Source: a bacterium HR29 (lineage in GTDB: Bacteria; Chloroflexota; Dehalococcoidia; Tepidiformales; Tepidiformaceae). Taken from it: DNA of 64,000 nucleotides. Both the position numbers and the translations under genes were made by a program. Numbering within the stretch: position 1 is the first letter of the stretch; the number at the start of each line of letters is the position of its first letter. Under the pieces are notes generated by a model. That model had not been told where the DNA came from and made no database searches. It saw only the letters and a list, made by a program, of their open reading frames with translations. Shown here in pieces: positions 3,514 through 62,172 of this stretch. The stretch is from NCBI GenBank assembly GCA_002898215.1, contig BEIF01000002.1:248001-312000 (forward strand), written 5' to 3'.

Positions 3514-4524
3514 ATGGCACGCCGTGACCGCACCACCGGACTTCCGCGTCGCCAACACGCCGAGCGGCCCCTCCAGGCCGGCCCGCGCGTGCGTCTCAGC
3601 GAGGGCGTGGTGCGGCTCGGCATCATCGGCACGGCCGCTTCCCTCCTCCTGCTCGTCATCGCGATCTTCGCCTGGCAGTGGTACCGCGAGAACGTAGCCA
3701 TGCCCCGGGCGACGGTCCTCACCGTGGGCGACCGGAAGGTCAGCCTCGCCTACTTCGCCGACCGCCTCCCGCAGTTCATGGTCGCCAACGGCAACAGGGA
3801 CACCGGCATCGCCGTCCAGGGCCTCCTCGGGAAGCTCGAGGAGGAGGAGTTGACGATCCTCCTTGCTCGCGAGCTCGGGCTCGAGCCCACGGACGAAGAG
3901 GTCACGCAGTCGATCGCGGAATCGCTCGGTGTCCCCGTAGGCGGGAGGGGTAGCTCCTTCGACCGGCTCTACCGCCAGGACCTCCGAATCACGGGGTTCA
4001 GCGACGCGACCTATCGACGCGTGGCGGCGGCGCGTCTCGCCAACCAGAGGCTCCTCGAACGCTATCAAGAGGAGGTCGGCACCGAAGGCGAACTGCTCAC
4101 GCTCCGCGTCATCGCCGTCGACGATGAGGCGAAGGCGAACGAGCTGAAGGTCCGCATCGAGGCTGGCGAGGACATGGGTTCGCTGGCGCAGCGCGAATCG
4201 ACCGACCAGGCGAGTCGCCAGCAGGACGGCCTCCTCGACCCGCAGCCCCTCGCCTTGCTGCCCGAGGCCGTTCGCCAGGCGGTGGGCGAGGCCGCCCCTG
4301 GTACGCTGGTCGGACCGCTCGCGGTGAACGATTCCTACTGGCTCGTCCGTCTCGAGCGCCGCGAGCGGGGCACCTACACCGATGTACAGCGCCGCGACCT
4401 CGCCCAGCAGCGGCTCGACGAGGCCCTGGCCGAACTGCGGAGCCGGACCGTGGTCCGCCGCGAGCTCTCCTCCGAAGAGACGGACTGGGCGCTGCGCCAC
4501 CTCGAATTCCCGTCCGGGAGCTGA
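3514..4524 (+). CDS. Membrane-anchored SurA/PrsA-like peptidyl-prolyl isomerase
   Basis: The 336-residue protein has a basic N-terminus and one membrane segment at ~34-54 (GTAASLLLLVIAIFAW). A SurA-like helical chaperone region follows (LARELGLEPTDEEVTQSI), then a parvulin-type rotamase domain at ~190-290 (LRVIAVDDEAKANELKVRIE, QDGLLDPQPLALLPEAV, GPLAVNDSYWLVRLERR). It probably helps fold exported proteins outside the membrane. It is 15 bases after rpsR and 4 bases before hom, so it is likely co-transcribed with both. Isomerase activity is inferred; it may act mainly as a chaperone. Confidence 0.8.
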   Translation: MARRDRTTGLPRRQHAERPLQAGPRVRLSEGVVRLGIIGTAASLLLLVIAIFAWQWYRENVAMPRATVLTVGDRKVSLAYFADRLPQFMVANGNRDTGIAVQGLLGKLEEEELTILLARELGLEPTDEEVTQSIAESLGVPVGGRGSSFDRLYRQDLRITGFSDATYRRVAAARLANQRLLERYQEEVGTEGELLTLRVIAVDDEAKANELKVRIEAGEDMGSLAQRESTDQASRQQDGLLDPQPLALLPEAVRQAVGEAAPGTLVGPLAVNDSYWLVRLERRERGTYTDVQRRDLAQQRLDEALAELRSRTVVRRELSSEETDWALRHLEFPSGS

Positions 4525-54567: not shown

Positions 54568-55197
54568 CTATCCCCGGGGCTCGAGCACGACGACCGTCAG
54601 CTCCTCGGGAACCTGCCCCGGGGAGACGGAGAGGCGTGGCTGGGGTTCGGCTTTCGCGCCGGTTTCCCGGAGAAAGCGGTCCAAGGGCTCGAGGTCCAAC
54701 CGCTCCTTCTCCGTCTTGTAGTGCATCGGGACGGCGATGTGCGGGTCGAGGGACGTCATCACATCCGCGGCTGTTGAGGGCCCCAGCGATTCGCCCCCGC
54801 CGACGGGCAGGAGGAGCACGTCCACGTCGTCCATCTGCTCGACGAGGGAGCTATCCGGCGCCTTGGCCGGGAGGCCAAGGTGGGCAATCCGAACGCCCTC
54901 GAGCTCGATGACGAACACCACGTTTCGGACGCCATCGGGGCGTCGGTCGGCCAGTGCCGTGATGAGGGCGTCCCCGATCTCGTACTCCCCCGGCGCCTCG
55001 AGCACCATGGGCTCTCCCTGCACGGCTGCCAGGTAGCTGTACCGTGGGTCGTCGCGACGGGAAAGGGTGACGATGGCGGCCGATTGCTTCCCCAGGCGGT
55101 ACCCGCTCTCGGGTGGACAGGGGTCGGTGAGGATGGTCACCGTCCGCCCGCGGATGCGGAAGCACGTCCGCCCGAACCAGACGATCTCGACGGGCAT
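54568..55197 (-). CDS. Metallo-beta-lactamase-fold protein lacking the metal motif (UlaG-like pseudoenzyme)
   Basis: A 209-residue protein resembling UlaG-like hydrolases: [66 protein letters not shown] and [15 protein letters not shown]. The HxHxDH motif expected around residues 46-52 reads SRRDDPR, the early GH becomes GR, and the HLGDxGH block reads HLGLPAK. Only His106 and His159 remain of the metal ligands. It is therefore unlikely to be an active zinc hydrolase; a binding or structural role is inferred. It lies 26 bases after the ketosynthase-like gene. Confidence 0.75.
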
Positions 55198-55223: not shown

Positions 55224-56384
55224 CTACGGGCGATCGGCGCTCGCCCGCTCAACGATGAGGGCGGCGTTCGTGCCCCCCAGCGCGAACGCGGTGACCACGA
55301 CCGCCTCCGTCCTCTCGGGGCGAACTGCCCGCGCGTAGGAGAGCTCGAGGTCGGGTTCCGGCTCTTCGAAGCCGGCGATGGGGGGCACTGCCTGGCGCCG
55401 GATGCATTCGAGCGCGACGACGGCGGCGAGCGCCGCCGAAGCGGCGAGCGCGTTGCCGATGGCTCCCTTCGGCGCCGTGACGGTGGCGTAGTGGGCGTGG
55501 CGGCCGAAGACGCGGCGGATCGCGTACCCTTCGGTGAAGTCGCGGGCGATGCGGCCGTCGGCGCCGGCGACGACGAGGTCGACCTGTCCTTGAAGCATCC
55601 CCGCCGCGGCCAGCGCGCCCTGGACGGCCCGCCCCGTCTCGGCCGGTTCGGAGAAGGCGAGCGGCTCCGCGCCGGGGTCGAAGGTGACGCAGGCGCCGGT
55701 GAGCGCGGCGACCGCTGGCACGCCGCGTTGCGCGGCGTGTTCGGCCGCTTCGATGACCAGGAAGGCGGCGCCTTCGCCCGGCACGAAGCCGCGGTGGCGC
55801 CGGTCGAACGGGCGAGCGGGCTCGTCCGACGCCCCCAGCTCGGCGAGGTGTGCGAGGAGCTGGGCCTGGAGGGCCTGCGCGCCTCCCGCGAAGGCCACGT
55901 CGACCACGCCCTCGGCGACCAGCCTGGCGGCGCGAGCAACGGCCAGCGCCGAGCCGGCCTCGCCGGCGGCGACGCTCTCCACCGGCCCGCGGATGCCGAG
56001 AGCCCTCGCCACCGTGTGTCCGTAGGGGACGTAGATGGCGGGTTGGCCTGGCGCTCGCAGGGGGAGGGCGTCGATGAGGGCGAATCGGCGGGCATCGCCC
56101 GAGCCAGGGCCCAGCCCGGCCATGGCCGCCGCTTGCAGGGCCGCGTCGAGGGCCATCGCCGAGCCCCGGTCGAGGGCGTGCCGCACGCTGCGAGGGATGT
56201 CGGGGTGTGGGCGGTATCCGTCCGGAAGCGGCGCGGCGAACCGCTCCGGGCCGCCATCATCCGGCACCCAAGGCCGCCCCGCTGGACGGCCCTCGGCGAG
56301 GGCAGCCCACAGCGGCTCGAGGCCACTGCCCCAGTGGCCGACCGCTCCGTACCCCGTCACGACCGGACGTCGTGGGTCGGTCAC
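55224..56384 (-). CDS. Ketosynthase-fold protein without catalytic triad (chain-length-factor-like)
   Basis: A 386-residue thiolase-fold protein starting at GTG 56384 (TDPRRPVVTGYGAVGHWGSG). It keeps the FabF-like frame: PARPFDRRHRGFVPGEGAAF, the lysine TAPKGAIGN (Lys306) and FALGGTNAALIVE. The catalytic Cys position holds Glu142 (SVAAGEAGSALAVAR). The first His block reads VVAGADGRI and the second His is Asn311. All three catalytic residues are gone, as in KS-beta/chain-length factors. It probably pairs with another ketosynthase or binds a ligand. No KS-alpha or ACP gene is adjacent. Confidence 0.82.
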   Translation of the reverse strand: MTDPRRPVVTGYGAVGHWGSGLEPLWAALAEGRPAGRPWVPDDGGPERFAAPLPDGYRPHPDIPRSVRHALDRGSAMALDAALQAAAMAGLGPGSGDARRFALIDALPLRAPGQPAIYVPYGHTVARALGIRGPVESVAAGEAGSALAVARAARLVAEGVVDVAFAGGAQALQAQLLAHLAELGASDEPARPFDRRHRGFVPGEGAAFLVIEAAEHAAQRGVPAVAALTGACVTFDPGAEPLAFSEPAETGRAVQGALAAAGMLQGQVDLVVAGADGRIARDFTEGYAIRRVFGRHAHYATVTAPKGAIGNALAASAALAAVVALECIRRQAVPPIAGFEEPEPDLELSYARAVRPERTEAVVVTAFALGGTNAALIVERASADRP

Positions 56385-56393
56385 AGCGGGACG

Positions 56394-56507
56394 CTACTCC
56401 AGCTCCTCGTCCAGGAACTCGTCGTCGTCCTTGTTCCGCCGGAGGAAGGCGACCACCCCGCCCACCACCGCGGCGATACCCAGCAATCCCAGCAATCGCT
56501 TGAACAT
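56394..56507 (-). CDS. 37-residue single-pass membrane micro-protein
   Basis: A very short gene: MFKRLLGLLGIAAVVGGVVA begins a membrane helix (about residues 5-22) that continues to a basic/acidic tail RRNKDDDEFLDEELE. AAGGAG lies 7-8 bases before the ATG. Positive residues flank one side and acids the other, so the C-terminus is probably cytoplasmic or interacts with a partner. It starts the run upstream of the ketosynthase-like gene with 9 bases between. A decayed copy lies 266 bases upstream. Function unknown. Confidence 0.72.
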   Translation of the reverse strand: MFKRLLGLLGIAAVVGGVVAFLRRNKDDDEFLDEELE

Positions 56508-56586
56508 GGCCAATCTCCTTCCGCCGCCCGGTCGTTACCGGAGGCGTCGTGGTCGAAGGTCACCATACACCAGCGCCGCCGAAGGG
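56508..56586 (-). repeat. Leader copy 1 of an imperfect tandem duplication
   Basis: On the reverse strand this ~80-base leader of the 37-residue gene closely matches 56774-56849, about four bases in five by eye. It contains CCGGT-CGTT-ACCGG, an inverted repeat whose arms differ from copy 2 but remain complementary. The shared block continues into the first codons of the downstream gene. Confidence 0.65.
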
Positions 56587-56686
56587 CCTATGCCTGCCTC
56601 GCCTCGGGTGCGCCACGGCTCGCGTGTTCATCGCTCCGCTGCCGCCGGAAGCCACCACAGCTCGGGCGAACCGCTCGCGGCGCAGG

Positions 56687-56773
56687 TTAGGCCGGGCATC
56701 CTCTTTCGCCGGGAGACCCATCGAGCCGATCGGCGTGGCGATTGCCTGGCCGCCCTGGGAGCCGCTTCGGCAT
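56687..56773 (-). pseudogene. Decayed duplicate of the 37-residue membrane micro-protein gene
   Basis: From an ATG at 56773 the frame reads MPKRLPGRPGN and stops at 56687. It aligns with MFKRLLGLLGI of the intact copy at DNA level; a one-base insertion then shifts the frame (ATCGCC in both copies). The ribosome binding site AAGGAG of the intact copy has become GGGTGG. The hydrophobic helix is destroyed. Everything from 56508 to 56862 is otherwise free of recognisable genes. Confidence 0.45.
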
Positions 56774-56849
56774 AGCCAACCACCCGCCGCTCCGTCGTTA
56801 ACGGAGGCGGGGTGGTCGGAGGTCATCACCCACCGGCACCGCCGTGGGC
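56774..56849 (-). repeat. Leader copy 2 of the tandem duplication
   Basis: Matches 56508-56586 on the same strand. The internal hairpin here is CTCCGT-CGTTA-ACGGAG, so both arms have changed together compared with copy 1. This pattern hints at selection for structure, or at least shared ancestry with paired changes. A 3-base gap removes part of the ribosome binding site region. Confidence 0.6.
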
Positions 56850-56862
56850 CGACGCGGGCTCC

Positions 56863-57699
56863 TCAGAACGTCCGGCGCCGCTTCAGGGCTCGTCCCTCCT
56901 CCGCTGCCCGCAGGAACTCCAGCAGGACGTCGGCGAAGCGCTCGGGACGGAGAATTGGCACGCCGTGTCCCGTCTCCCGGAAGAGCGCCACGGTAGCGTG
57001 GGGCAGCTCGTCCGCCATGACCTCGGCGGCACAGGCGACGGGGTCGTCGAGCCCGGCGGCGATGAGGACGGGCATCGTCAGGCGCGCCCTCAGGAGCGGC
57101 ACGAGGTCCTTCCGCTCCCGCCGTGCTTTCGCCGCACCGAGGAACCCCTCCGTGCGCATACGCCCGTAGAGCGCGCGGACCGCATCGGCGAGGAACGGGT
57201 CGGCGAACTCCTTGGCGAGCCGCCGCCCCAGCTCCAGCGTCCCGAACCGGGCAGCGACCGTTTCCAGCTCGTGAATGCGCCGTTCGCGTGCTCGGAACTC
57301 CTCGGTGTACCGCTCGTGGTCGGGCGCGGGCGAGGTGTCGCTCAGCGCCAGCGCTGCCACCGGTTCGGGAGTCTCGACCGCGAGCTGGAGCGCTGCCATG
57401 CCGCCGAAGCTGCAGCTGACGAGGGCGTACCGCTCTGCTCCGACGGTCCGAGCCAGCGCCCGCACGTCCTCGGCGTACGTCTCCATCGAGTACGCGTCGA
57501 GGTCGCCCGGAGCGTCGCTGCGACCGTGCCCGCGAAGGTCGGGGGCCAGTAGCCAGTATTCGTGCGCGAGCCGCGAGGCCACCGGATGCCACCAGCGGGC
57601 GTCCCCCGTGAAGGGGTGGAGGAGGATGACCGGCGGGAGCGACGGGTCGCCCCACGTCTCGTAGGCCAGTGTGACGCCGTCCCGCTCGTAGAAAGGCAT
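56863..57699 (-). CDS. Alpha/beta hydrolase (3-oxoadipate enol-lactonase-like)
   Basis: A 278-residue protein from ATG 57699: MPFYERDGVTLAYETWGDPS. It has VILLHPFTGDARWWHPVASR (oxyanion HPF), LLAPDLRGHGRSDAP, the nucleophile elbow YALVSCSFGGMAALQLA (the usual Gly before the Ser motif is Ser), acid region VLIAAGLDDPVACAAEV and the catalytic His in RETGHGVPILRPERF. Substrate unknown; esterase, lactonase or epoxide hydrolase types share this layout. It lies downstream of the cox-like genes, 50 bases away in the same direction. Confidence 0.85.
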   Translation of the reverse strand: MPFYERDGVTLAYETWGDPSLPPVILLHPFTGDARWWHPVASRLAHEYWLLAPDLRGHGRSDAPGDLDAYSMETYAEDVRALARTVGAERYALVSCSFGGMAALQLAVETPEPVAALALSDTSPAPDHERYTEEFRARERRIHELETVAARFGTLELGRRLAKEFADPFLADAVRALYGRMRTEGFLGAAKARRERKDLVPLLRARLTMPVLIAAGLDDPVACAAEVMADELPHATVALFRETGHGVPILRPERFADVLLEFLRAAEEGRALKRRRTF

Positions 57700-57749: not shown

Positions 57750-58604
57750 TCAGGCGCGAGCGACGGCGCGCTCCAGTGCTCGGCGGGTGAAGACCTTCAC
57801 CATCGCCCGACGGTACTCCTCCGAGGCGTGGATGTCGCTGTTTACGTCCTCGAGGGTATCCCCTGCCACGGAGGCTGCCTCGTCGATGACTGCTTGCGTG
57901 GGCTGGCGTCCCACCAGCCGCTCCTCCACGTTGGGGAGCCGTTGGGCGTGCGTCGACGCCCCGGTAACGGCGACCCGTGCCGAGCGGATGGTACCGTTCT
58001 CGATGGCCAAGGCGGCGCAGACGCCCACGATCGCGTAGTGGGAGGCGCGCTGGTGCAGCTTCGCGTACGCCGCGTGCCACACCGGCCGGAACTTCACCGC
58101 CGCGAGCACTTCGTCCGGCTGCATGTCGACCGTGAAGAGGTCCTGGAAGAACGACTCGGCGGGCACCGTCCGCCAGCCGTTGGGCCCCTTGAGGTGGATC
58201 TCCGCGTCGATGGCCACCATCACCGCCGGCAGGTCGGCAGCCGGGTCGGCGTGGGCCAGGCTGCCGCCGATGGTCCCGCGATGGCGGACCTGGGGGTCGC
58301 CGATTTCCGCCGCTGCTTCGCTGACCACCGGGGCGAGGCGCCGAAGCAGCTCCGAGGTGGCCAGCTCGTGGTGGGTCGTCGTGGCCCCGATTTCGATGAG
58401 GCCGTCCCGCTCGCGGATGCCCCGGAGGTCGGGGATGCGACCGATGTCGATGAGCAGCGCGGGCTCGCTGAGGCGGAGCTTCATGAGCGGGATGAGGCTA
58501 TGGCCTCCAGCCAGCAGCTTCGCCTCTCCGCCCGATTCCTGGAGGAGACGGATCGCCTCGTCGATGCTCGCTGCCCGCCGGTAGGCGAACTTCGTCGGAA
58601 TCAT
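57750..58604 (-). CDS. FAD-binding subunit of CO dehydrogenase-type molybdenum hydroxylase (CoxM-like)
   Basis: A 284-residue FAD subunit: FAYRRAASIDEAIRLLQESG, the FAD motif LLAGGHSLIPLMKLRLSEP, IEIGATTTHHELATSELL, HRGTIGGSLAHADPAADLP (second FAD motif) and the CoxM C-terminal domain. It passes electrons from the molybdenum site toward the respiratory chain. The ATG overlaps the coxL-like stop (ATGA). Together with the next two genes it forms the M-L-S trio. Confidence 0.9.
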   Translation of the reverse strand: MIPTKFAYRRAASIDEAIRLLQESGGEAKLLAGGHSLIPLMKLRLSEPALLIDIGRIPDLRGIRERDGLIEIGATTTHHELATSELLRRLAPVVSEAAAEIGDPQVRHRGTIGGSLAHADPAADLPAVMVAIDAEIHLKGPNGWRTVPAESFFQDLFTVDMQPDEVLAAVKFRPVWHAAYAKLHQRASHYAIVGVCAALAIENGTIRSARVAVTGASTHAQRLPNVEERLVGRQPTQAVIDEAASVAGDTLEDVNSDIHASEEYRRAMVKVFTRRALERAVARA

Positions 58605-61036
58605 GCCTGGCCCCTCCCGTGGATGATTCGCCACAGCTTTTCGGGCCGCAGCGGCATATCGATGTGCTTCACCCCAAATTCCGACAGCGCATCGACTGCC
58701 GCGTTGACGACCGCCGGCGTCGACCCGAGCGTGCCAGCCTCGCCCACGCCCTTCGCGCCGAGCGGGTTCACCGGCGTGGGGGTCACGGTTCGGTCGAGCT
58801 CGAACCAGGGGAAGTCGGTCGCCCGGGGGAGGGCGTAGTCCATGAAGCTGCCGGTGAGGAGCTGCCCATCGGGGCCGTACACCACCTCCTCGAACATCGC
58901 CTGCCCGATGCCCTGGGCGAGCCCACCGTGCACCTGACCTTCGACGATGAGCGGGTTGATGACGTTGCCGCAGTCGTCCACGGCGAAGAACTTGAGCAGT
59001 CGGGGCTCCCCCGTCTCGCGGTCGATTTCGAGCATGCAGATGTGGGCCCCGAACGGGTAGGTGTTGTTGGGCGGCTCGAAGAACGCCTCCTCCGAGAGGC
59101 CGGGCTCCAGTCCGGGAGGCAGCGGCACGGGCACGTAGGCGTACCGGGCCACCTCGGCGAAGCTCTTCCCGGTGGACGGGGAGCCCTTGACGTAAATCAT
59201 GCCGTTCTCGAAGACGAGGTCCTCCTCGTTGGCGTCCATGAGCGCCGCGGCGAACTTCGCCATCTTCTTCCGGACCTTCTCGCCGGCCATCATCAGCGCC
59301 GTCCCGCCGACGGCCTGGGAGCGGCTGCCGAAGGTGCCGATGCCCTGGCGCACCACGCCGGTGTCGCCGTGCTCGATGGTGATGTGCTCGATGGGCACCC
59401 CGAAGAGGTCGGCCAGCATCTGGGCGAAGGTGGTCTCGTTTCCCTGGCCGTGGGGCGAGGCTCCGGTCGTCGCCCGGATGCGCCCGTCCCGCTCCACGGT
59501 GACGCTGGCGTGCTCCCAGCCACCGGTAGGCAGGGATGACGAAGGCCCGAGTCCGCACACCTCGACGTAGAAGGCGAGCCCGACGCCGACGAGCCGTCCC
59601 TCCGCGCGCAAGCGGTCGCGCTCGGCGATGAGCTCATCCCACTTCGCGAGCTGCAGCACCCGGTCGAGGGCCTTCTCGTAATCGCCCGAGTCGTAGACGG
59701 CGCCCGTCTGGGTGGTGTAGGGGAACTTCTCTTTCGGGATGAAGTTCCGGCGCCGCACCTCCGCCGGGTCGAGCCCGAGCTCTCGAGCGAGCATGTCCAT
59801 GCCCCGCTCCAGGAAGTACGTCGCCTCCGGGCGGCCGGCGCCCCGATAGGCGTCCGTGGGGGTCTTGTTCGTGAAGACCTCCGTGAGCTCGCAGCGGATG
59901 GCGGGGATGTCGTACGTTCCGCTCGCCATCAGCATCGTGAGGGTGGGGATGGCTGCCGTGAGCAGCATGTTGTAGGCGCCGATGTCGGCGATGAGCTTCA
60001 TCTTGACGCCGAGGATCCGGCCGTCGCGACGGGCGGCGATGTCGAGGTAGCAGATGAGGTCCCGACCGTGGATCGTCGCCATGAACGCTTCGGAGCGGTC
60101 CTCGATCCACTTCACCGGGCGCTCGAGGATGCGTGAGAGCGCGGCGGCGACGTACTCCTCGCCGTAGATGTTGATCTTGCAGCCGAACCCGCCGCCCACC
60201 TCCGGGGCGATGGCACGAACCTGGTGCTCGCCCAACCCGAGCACCGCGGCCACCATCGACTTGAGGATGTGCGGGTTCTGCGTGGCGCTCCAGATGGTGA
60301 GGAATTCCTTCCCGGCGTCCCAGTGCGCCACCACGCCGCGGGGCTCCATGGCGTTCGGCGCCACCCGGTGGTTCACCATCCGCTGGGAGATGACCACCTC
60401 CGCCTCGGCAAAGGCGCGGTCGATGGCGGAGTTGTCGACCTGGCCCGTGGCCGGGTCGACCCCGGTGCCCATCGGCACGTAGGGGAGGGCGAGGTTGTTC
60501 GGGAAGCCCTCGTGGATGACGGTGGGCTGGCCCTGCATGGCCAGCTCCGGGTCGACCACGGCCGGAAGTTCTTCGTACTCGACCACGATCGCGTCCACCG
60601 CGTCGCGGGCGACGTACCGGTCCTCCGCCGCGACCACGGCCACGGGCTCACCTACGTACCGCACCACTTCGGGCGCGATCGCGTAGTGGTCGGGAGATGG
60701 GAAGGGAGTGCCGATGGGCATGGGCGGTAGCCCCGCCCCGATCTTCGCCGCGTAGGTCCCCCTTGCACCGACCGGTCGCGTCGCCCCGGGCAGAGCCATG
60801 AGGTCCTTCCCGGTGAACACTGCGACGACGCCGGGCATGGCTTCGGCCGCGCTGGTGTCGATCCGCTTGATGCGGCCGTGGGCCACGTCGCTGCGCTTGA
60901 ACGCCAAGTGCAGCATCCCCGGCAGCTTGATGTCGTCGACGTAGGTCGCCCGGCCGCGGATGAGCCGCGGGTCTTCGCGCCGCTTCACCCGCGCGCCGAT
61001 GAGCTTCGGGAGCACCGGACGTTCCATCGTCGTCAT
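58601..61036 (-). CDS. Molybdopterin-binding large subunit, form II CoxL type
   Basis: An 811-residue protein: [60 protein letters not shown] and the C-terminal catalytic [20 protein letters not shown]. The active-site loop is AYRGAGR (396-402), the form II signature; true CO-oxidising form I enzymes have AYxCSFR. The substrate could be another small aldehyde, purine or aromatic; CO cannot be assumed. ATG 61036 overlaps the coxS-like stop (ATGA). Confidence 0.92.
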
Positions 61037-61518
61037 GAGCTCACCCCCCGCATCCGCGCGGCGGCGTACTGCGCCGCTTTCACGATGTGTTGGTACCCGG
61101 TGCAACGGCAGAAGTTGCCGGAAATCCCGGCACGGATCTCGGCTTCGGTCGGGTTCGGGTTCTCGTTCAGGAGGTCGACGACGGAGACGATCATCCCCGG
61201 CGTGCAGTAGCCGCACTGGAGGCCATGCTCCTCCCAGAACCCCTCCTGCACGGGATGGAGCTGGCCGTCCCTCTCCAGCCCCTCGATGGTGACGACCTCC
61301 GAGCCGTCGGCCTGCACGGCGAACACGGTGCACGACTTGGCGCTCCGGCCGTCGAGCAGCACCGTGCAGGCGCCGCATTGGCTGGTGTCACACCCCACGT
61401 GCGTGCCCGTGAGGAGCAGCTTCTCGCGCAGGAGGTGTACGAGCAGCAGCCGAGGCTCCACCTCGAGCTCGTACCGTCGTCCGTTGACGGTGATGGAAAT
61501 CGGAACGAGGTCCGACAT
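61033..61518 (-). CDS. [2Fe-2S] small subunit of CO dehydrogenase-type molybdenum hydroxylase (CoxS-like)
   Basis: A 161-residue protein with a plant-type ferredoxin cluster ([20 protein letters not shown] and the first Cys in THVGC) and a second cluster in the helical domain ([29 protein letters not shown]). It relays electrons from the molybdenum to FAD. GAGGAGA precedes the ATG. First of the trio S-L-M in transcription order. Confidence 0.94.
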
Positions 61519-61579
61519 TTCGTCTCCTCTCCTCCTCGATGCCTCCGTCGGTGTGTGCCGACAGCGTTCGCCCCGCGTT

Positions 61580-62026
61580 TCAGGCGGGACGTCGTTGCAG
61601 CTGGGATTCCATGCCTTTGAAGAATTGACCGATGAGGAGCTTCGCCGCGCCGGTGAGGAGCCGGCTGCCCAGGCGGGCGATCGCCCCCCGGGCGCGCACT
61701 TCGCCGCGGTACCGGACGAGCGTCCCGTCGCCGTCCTCGCTCAGCTGCAGTTCGGCTTCGCCCTCCACGCTCCCGGGCTTCCCCTCTCCCGTGACCAGCA
61801 TCCGGTACGAGGTCTCCGGCTGCTGGTCGGCGATGCGGACGGTGCCCGTGTAGGTCCCTTTGATGGCCGCGATGCCCACCTTCAGCGTGACGGAGTAGGC
61901 GTCCTCCCCGATGCGTTCGAGCTGCTCGCAGCCGGGAATCGCCTCCCGCAACGCTTCCGGGTCGAGGAGGGCTTTCCAGACGGCTTGCCGCGGCGCCCGG
62001 AAGCGGTGCTCCCCTGCCAGTTCCAA
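61580..62026 (-). CDS. CoxG-like SRPBCC domain protein
   Basis: A 148-residue single START-like domain: [60 protein letters not shown] and [20 protein letters not shown], ending QLQRRPA. CoxG proteins accompany CO dehydrogenase genes and have been linked to membrane attachment or quinone transfer. TTG start at 62026 with GGGGGTG upstream; other starts give no ribosome binding site. It is 62 bases upstream of the coxS-like gene. Confidence 0.85.
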
Positions 62027-62172
62027 TACGCACCCCCTTCTGCTCGTGCTCGGGTTCCCTCGCAGCCCCGGCCCGCCTATCCTACCCCTCGGTCGAACGC
62101 CGCAACAAGACGCCACCAATTCGATCCGAAGCTTTCACCGTTCGGCGCCTGCGTTCGGGCGACAATTTCGGT

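Follow-up and report, generated by a model that had tools for sequence, protein, structure and literature searches.

A conserved, predicted single-pass membrane micro-protein encoded beside two putative pseudoenzymes in one family of Dehalococcoidia

The window, a stretch of 64,000 nucleotides from bacterium HR29 (Chloroflexota; Dehalococcoidia; Tepidiformaceae; contig BEIF01000002.1), belongs to a genome of 2.34 Mb in four contigs. Its minus strand carries, in the order of reading, an alpha/beta hydrolase gene (56863..57657), a micro-ORF of 37 codons plus stop (56507..56394), a ketosynthase-like gene related to FabF (55224..56384), a gene with a metallo-beta-lactamase (MBL) fold (54568..55197), and the gene of a protoglobin chemotaxis transducer. 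The micro-ORF is preceded by an AAGGAG site and encodes MFKRLLGLLGIAAVVGGVVAFLRRNKDDDEFLDEELE; the hydrolase gene lies upstream of it in part of the family to which the window belongs (family f1). Downstream of the MBL-fold gene, the transducer gene (54452-52806, minus strand) fuses a protoglobin to a methyl-accepting chemotaxis signalling domain, and its product is probably a haem-based gas sensor. Molybdenum hydroxylase (CoxM/L/S-like) genes and a CoxG-like gene occupy positions 57750-62119 on the minus strand, just upstream of the hydrolase, and such a block is likewise found near the micro-gene in genome G006 (L044). Apart from one tRNA, the window has no Rfam matches.

The micro-protein consists of a short N-terminus with Lys or Arg, one transmembrane (TM) segment supported by hydropathy, an Arg-Arg pair, and the acidic tail DDDEFLDEEL. 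A protein search at E 0.1 finds homologues in 23 of 41 genomes, nearly all of family f1, and in a profile search homologues reach E 4e-22. With the searches combined, the gene is present in 30 of the 34 family f1 genomes with known outcome, in one convincing copy each; unlisted family members without a match may still exist in the class sample. Thus, homologues of the peptide, whose absence from related genomes the sequence-only reading had named as evidence against itself, occur in most of the family, and those with names belong to assemblies of uncultured Dehalococcoidia and Chloroflexi. The family genomes without a match are 69-85% complete; one of them, G014 (85% complete), does carry the MBL-fold gene. 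Throughout family f1, the peptides (35-37 residues) follow a single, near-invariant pattern, MKK-TM-RR-DDDEFLDEEL, with Lys3, Asp29, Phe31, Leu32, Asp33, and Leu36 invariant and amino acid conservation focused on the C-terminal tail. A single hydrophobic stretch (best 17-residue KD 2.0-3.2) is common to all of them; it is preceded by two basic residues and followed by two to four, and the tail carries six to ten acidic ones. Substitutions relative to the closest relatives are distributed over the three codon positions as 6/4/18, 9/3/25, and 11/6/23, and this excess of third-position change indicates selection on the protein. As the frame is also intact in the homologues, the micro-ORF behaves as a protein-coding gene under selection and is almost certainly a real, conserved gene.

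No Pfam or NCBIfam model covers the micro-protein, and literature searches returned no account of its gene. The sequence-only reading had proposed an undescribed micro-protein with a structured leader beside pseudoenzymes; the gene, its pseudoenzyme neighbours, and its absence from Pfam and NCBIfam hold up, and its conservation reaches farther than the letters of the window could show; the leader structure does not hold up (see below). Among described families, DLW-39 (NF038356) gives a weak match (E 0.011-0.059); it shares with the micro-protein the M-K-K start, the single TM segment, and a short charged tail but lacks the DEFLDEEL motif in the matched stretch, and with 13.2 and 15.6 bits against a curated cut-off of 24, membership is rejected. 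Sortase or CTERM anchor domains (LPXTG, IPTL-CTERM) likewise score below cut-off throughout, and the ORF is free-standing rather than the C-terminus of a larger protein.

The micro-gene is preceded by a leader (56508..56593, minus strand; copy 1) that contains a -10-like hexamer, TATGGT, at -60 (56562-56567), a short hairpin (56528-56541), and the AAGGAG ribosome binding site (56515-56520). In 18 of 20 family relatives, the start is preceded at a distance of 26-75 nt by a TATNNT hexamer (against a mean of 1.5 and a maximum of 5 in shuffled sequences), and most of their micro-genes have a clear ribosome binding site. These features suggest that the micro-gene is under its own promoter and leads its own operon, with which the downstream genes would be co-transcribed.

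A second, matching leader of about 80 bases (copy 2; 56774..56855) lies on the same strand between the hydrolase and the micro-gene. As had been noted from the letters of the window, the two blocks are clearly related: 63 of 82 ungapped columns are identical, with a local score of 86 against a maximum of 39 in 1000 shuffles. The similarity runs for about 60 nt past a second ATG (56711..56773), where the decayed start of a micro-ORF reads MPKRLPGRPG before its frame is shifted by one inserted base (31 of 60 positions identical, 0 of 1000 shuffles). Farther downstream the homology is not significant, and homology of copy 2 over the whole unit is rejected. Copy 2 has also lost 3 nt of the ribosome binding site as well as the -10 hexamer, so its earlier description as a copy without ribosome binding site and out of frame is borne out. 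Relatives with the same hydrolase have a gap of approx. 90-125 nt between hydrolase and micro-gene; here the gap has grown to 355 nt because of the duplication, with the ATG of copy 2 lying 89 nt after the hydrolase stop. The matched leader and start, together with the enlarged gap, fit a tandem duplication followed by decay of the upstream copy. As judged from the sequence, copy 2 is a local, decayed tandem duplication of the promoter and gene start. A dispersed intergenic repeat family, the other outcome that would have spoken against the sequence-only reading, is excluded, since only these two copies occur in 2.34 Mb.

The central hairpins of the two leaders had been read as differing in sequence while remaining paired. 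On the two-copy alignment, however, CCGGT pairs with ACCGG in copy 1 (columns 4-8 with 13-17), whereas CTCCGT pairs with ACGGAG in copy 2 (columns 2-7 with 13-18), i.e., in a register shifted by one column, and neither structure contains a single compensatory pair. Covariation of the leader is therefore scarcely credible, and the case demonstrates how two repeats can give a neat impression of "covarying hairpins" that does not survive a check of the pairing registers. It could still be argued that both hairpins duplicate a structured RNA element acting in cis, or else the operator of a dimeric repressor: copy 2 folds far better than its shuffles (z -4.0 to -4.7, 0 of 200), and more of its leader than of its coding part has been preserved (63 of 82 against 31 of 60 positions, Fisher p 0.002). 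Yet copy 1, which precedes the live gene, folds ordinarily (z -1.0 to -1.4), and the shifted register and missing compensatory pairs tell against this explanation as well. Moreover, in the genome a covariance model built from both copies matches these two sites alone, and in 35 loci of relatives it yields no convincing match (best E 0.11, away from any micro-gene); the leaders of nearly all relatives fold no better than shuffled sequence. A homologue of the leader was found neither in 20 family f1 relatives nor elsewhere in the genome, an outcome that the sequence-only reading had itself listed as adverse. A shared cis-acting element is thus very unlikely, a riboswitch or attenuator is rejected for want of compensatory substitutions and of a conserved fold in relatives, and the hairpins do not represent a conserved regulatory RNA.

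The hairpin of copy 2 is unusually stable in its own right: it spans 44 nt (56776-56819, minus strand), has no T-run, and lies just past the hydrolase gene. Its position, approx. 43 nt beyond the hydrolase stop codon, and the derived changes that lengthen its stem might mean that this hairpin has been retained or remodelled to serve as a 3' stem-loop that protects or ends the hydrolase mRNA; as the T-run is lacking and the case is a single one, this is rather unlikely.

The two genes downstream of the micro-gene encode, very probably, pseudoenzymes, as their motifs indicate and as had been supposed from the window itself. The MBL-fold protein is a member of PF13483 (107.7 bits against a gathering threshold of 24; Pfam E 8e-31) and belongs by sequence to the same family as TM0207, its closest solved structure (1vjn, E 2e-28). 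TM0207 keeps its metal ligands, as do other Dehalococcoidia families, whereas the window's family has lost all of them. In particular, in 13 of 13 aligned family f1 proteins WLGHSCF has become WxGRTCF, SHxHxxH has become SxRDDP, the TYHD segment is deleted, and HLGDLGH has become HLGLP, so that the metal-binding His/Asp motifs of an active enzyme are absent. In a tree, these ligand-less proteins form one clade with 100/100 support, and the ligand-bearing MBL proteins, with or without a micro-gene, fall outside it. In another family, the MBL gene at 4025 of locus L123 (G029) seems to have lost the metal motif too (WMGRRCF, SLGEMD), which would be independent of the loss in family f1. Although alignable to FabF, the ketosynthase-like proteins have lost the active-site Cys and both catalytic His, and hence the Cys-His-His triad of an active KAS II. 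They recall the ketosynthase chain-length factors (KS-beta; 1tqy_B, E 3e-22), which belong to the FabF fold family and likewise lack the active-site Cys. Chain-length factors carry Gln at that position, where most of the ketosynthase-like proteins have Glu. Further differences are the loss of both catalytic His, a score that is higher against FabF than against 1tqy_B, and the lack of an adjacent KS-alpha gene in the window.

Among the 34 family f1 genomes, the MBL-fold gene is found in 31 and the ketosynthase-like gene in 25. In most, the micro-gene adjoins one or both of them, the ketosynthase-like gene lying in between in most members. Linkage to the MBL-fold gene is not obligatory, as the two genes lie apart in six genomes (G003, G004, G015, G016, G017, and G023). 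Five genomes (G005, G015, G017, G019, and G023), of which three are 92% complete or better, have no ketosynthase-like gene but retain the micro-gene, its tail motif, and the MBL-fold gene, which makes the MBL-fold protein a likelier partner than the ketosynthase-like protein. The same observation bears on the suggestion that the micro-ORF is a leader peptide controlling the ketosynthase-like gene by translation, with the hairpins as part of an attenuator. Only 9 nt separate the micro-gene stop from the ketosynthase-like start, and a hairpin does stand ahead of the ribosome binding site; however, conservation is concentrated in the C-terminal tail of the peptide, neither a conserved leader fold nor a terminator was found, and the micro-gene outlives the ketosynthase-like gene, which renders this explanation most improbable.

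A longer form of the micro-protein (39-55 residues; MAE...KKGG-TM-FWRRR followed by a mostly acidic tail) occurs in four more Dehalococcoidia families (f59, f34, f53, and f70), cross-family orthology of the short forms resting on the TM segment, the Arg triplet, and gene order. In 22 of 22 loci read in these families, a TM0207-like MBL-fold gene lies directly downstream on the same strand; its metal motifs are intact in all 17 aligned sequences (16 genomes) from those loci, and the ketosynthase-like gene is absent from 10 of 10 tested genomes with the longer form. The tails in these families are simply acidic or short, so that DEFLDEEL need not be an MBL docking site. In seven further Dehalococcoidia families, the region upstream of the MBL genes showed no small ORF related to the micro-gene. 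When the phylum was searched with the broad alignment, matches outside the class were all weak, and the best of them (G606) has no MBL neighbour. Matches in families f21, f17, and f63, which also lack an MBL neighbour, look like unrelated small MKK-TM proteins and were set aside. Small MKK/MKR-TM-acidic proteins at L089 and L090 (f21) and at L091 and L092 (f17) are conserved within their own families, have no MBL neighbours, and are probably unrelated.

Gene order and conservation suggest, with about an even chance of being right, that the micro-protein spans the membrane once and partners the MBL-fold protein, most likely as its membrane anchor or as a subunit that regulates it. The hydrophobic stretch would sit in the membrane, and the acidic tail, DEFLDEEL in family f1, may dock the partner on the cytosolic side. 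Adjacency to MBL-fold genes is seen in five families, and the simplest story is that of an ancestral pair, a loss, and an addition: the micro-protein would originally have been paired with an MBL-fold protein that looks like an active metallo-hydrolase in the sister families; MBL catalysis would have been lost in the ancestor of family f1 while the micro-protein was kept; and a dead ketosynthase would have been added between the two genes in most members. The resulting complex may act as a scaffold or sensor instead of an enzyme. It is possible, though decidedly tentative, that the whole family carries such a membrane-tethered complex, in which two dead enzymes, the MBL-fold and the ketosynthase-like protein, are held by a 37-residue anchor, an ancestral micro-protein/metallo-hydrolase pair having become a non-catalytic scaffold or sensor. 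The micro-protein might, alternatively, be an independent small membrane protein, e.g., a stabiliser of another membrane complex, whose position ahead of the MBL-fold gene reflects inherited gene order and no physical partnership. The six family f1 genomes with unlinked MBL-fold genes and the poor conservation of the tail in detail outside that family agree with such independence; the adjacency in all 22 loci of four other families, in differing surroundings (for example near hrcA/grpE or pyrG, by ORF reading), does not, and this alternative is regarded as possible but doubtful.

A membrane partner of the MBL-fold protein would have parallels among known small subunits. CydX is an operon-encoded small single-pass membrane subunit (PMC4325964). 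The micro-protein is like CydX and MgtU in having 30-50 residues and one TM segment and in being encoded by a short gene, easily missed by annotation, beside the gene of a larger partner; no sequence relation to such subunits rises above the curated cut-off. Subunits of the CydX/MgtU type partner integral membrane proteins, and, unlike them, the micro-gene has MBL-fold and ketosynthase-like pseudoenzymes as its neighbours. The locus thus adds an undescribed micro-protein family, near-universal in one family of Dehalococcoidia and supplied with a predicted partner. Moreover, it offers an evolutionary before and after, in which the small membrane protein accompanies an apparently live MBL enzyme in the sister families and, in family f1, the dead descendant of that enzyme, and the question of what a pseudoenzyme does once catalysis has been lost becomes directly testable.
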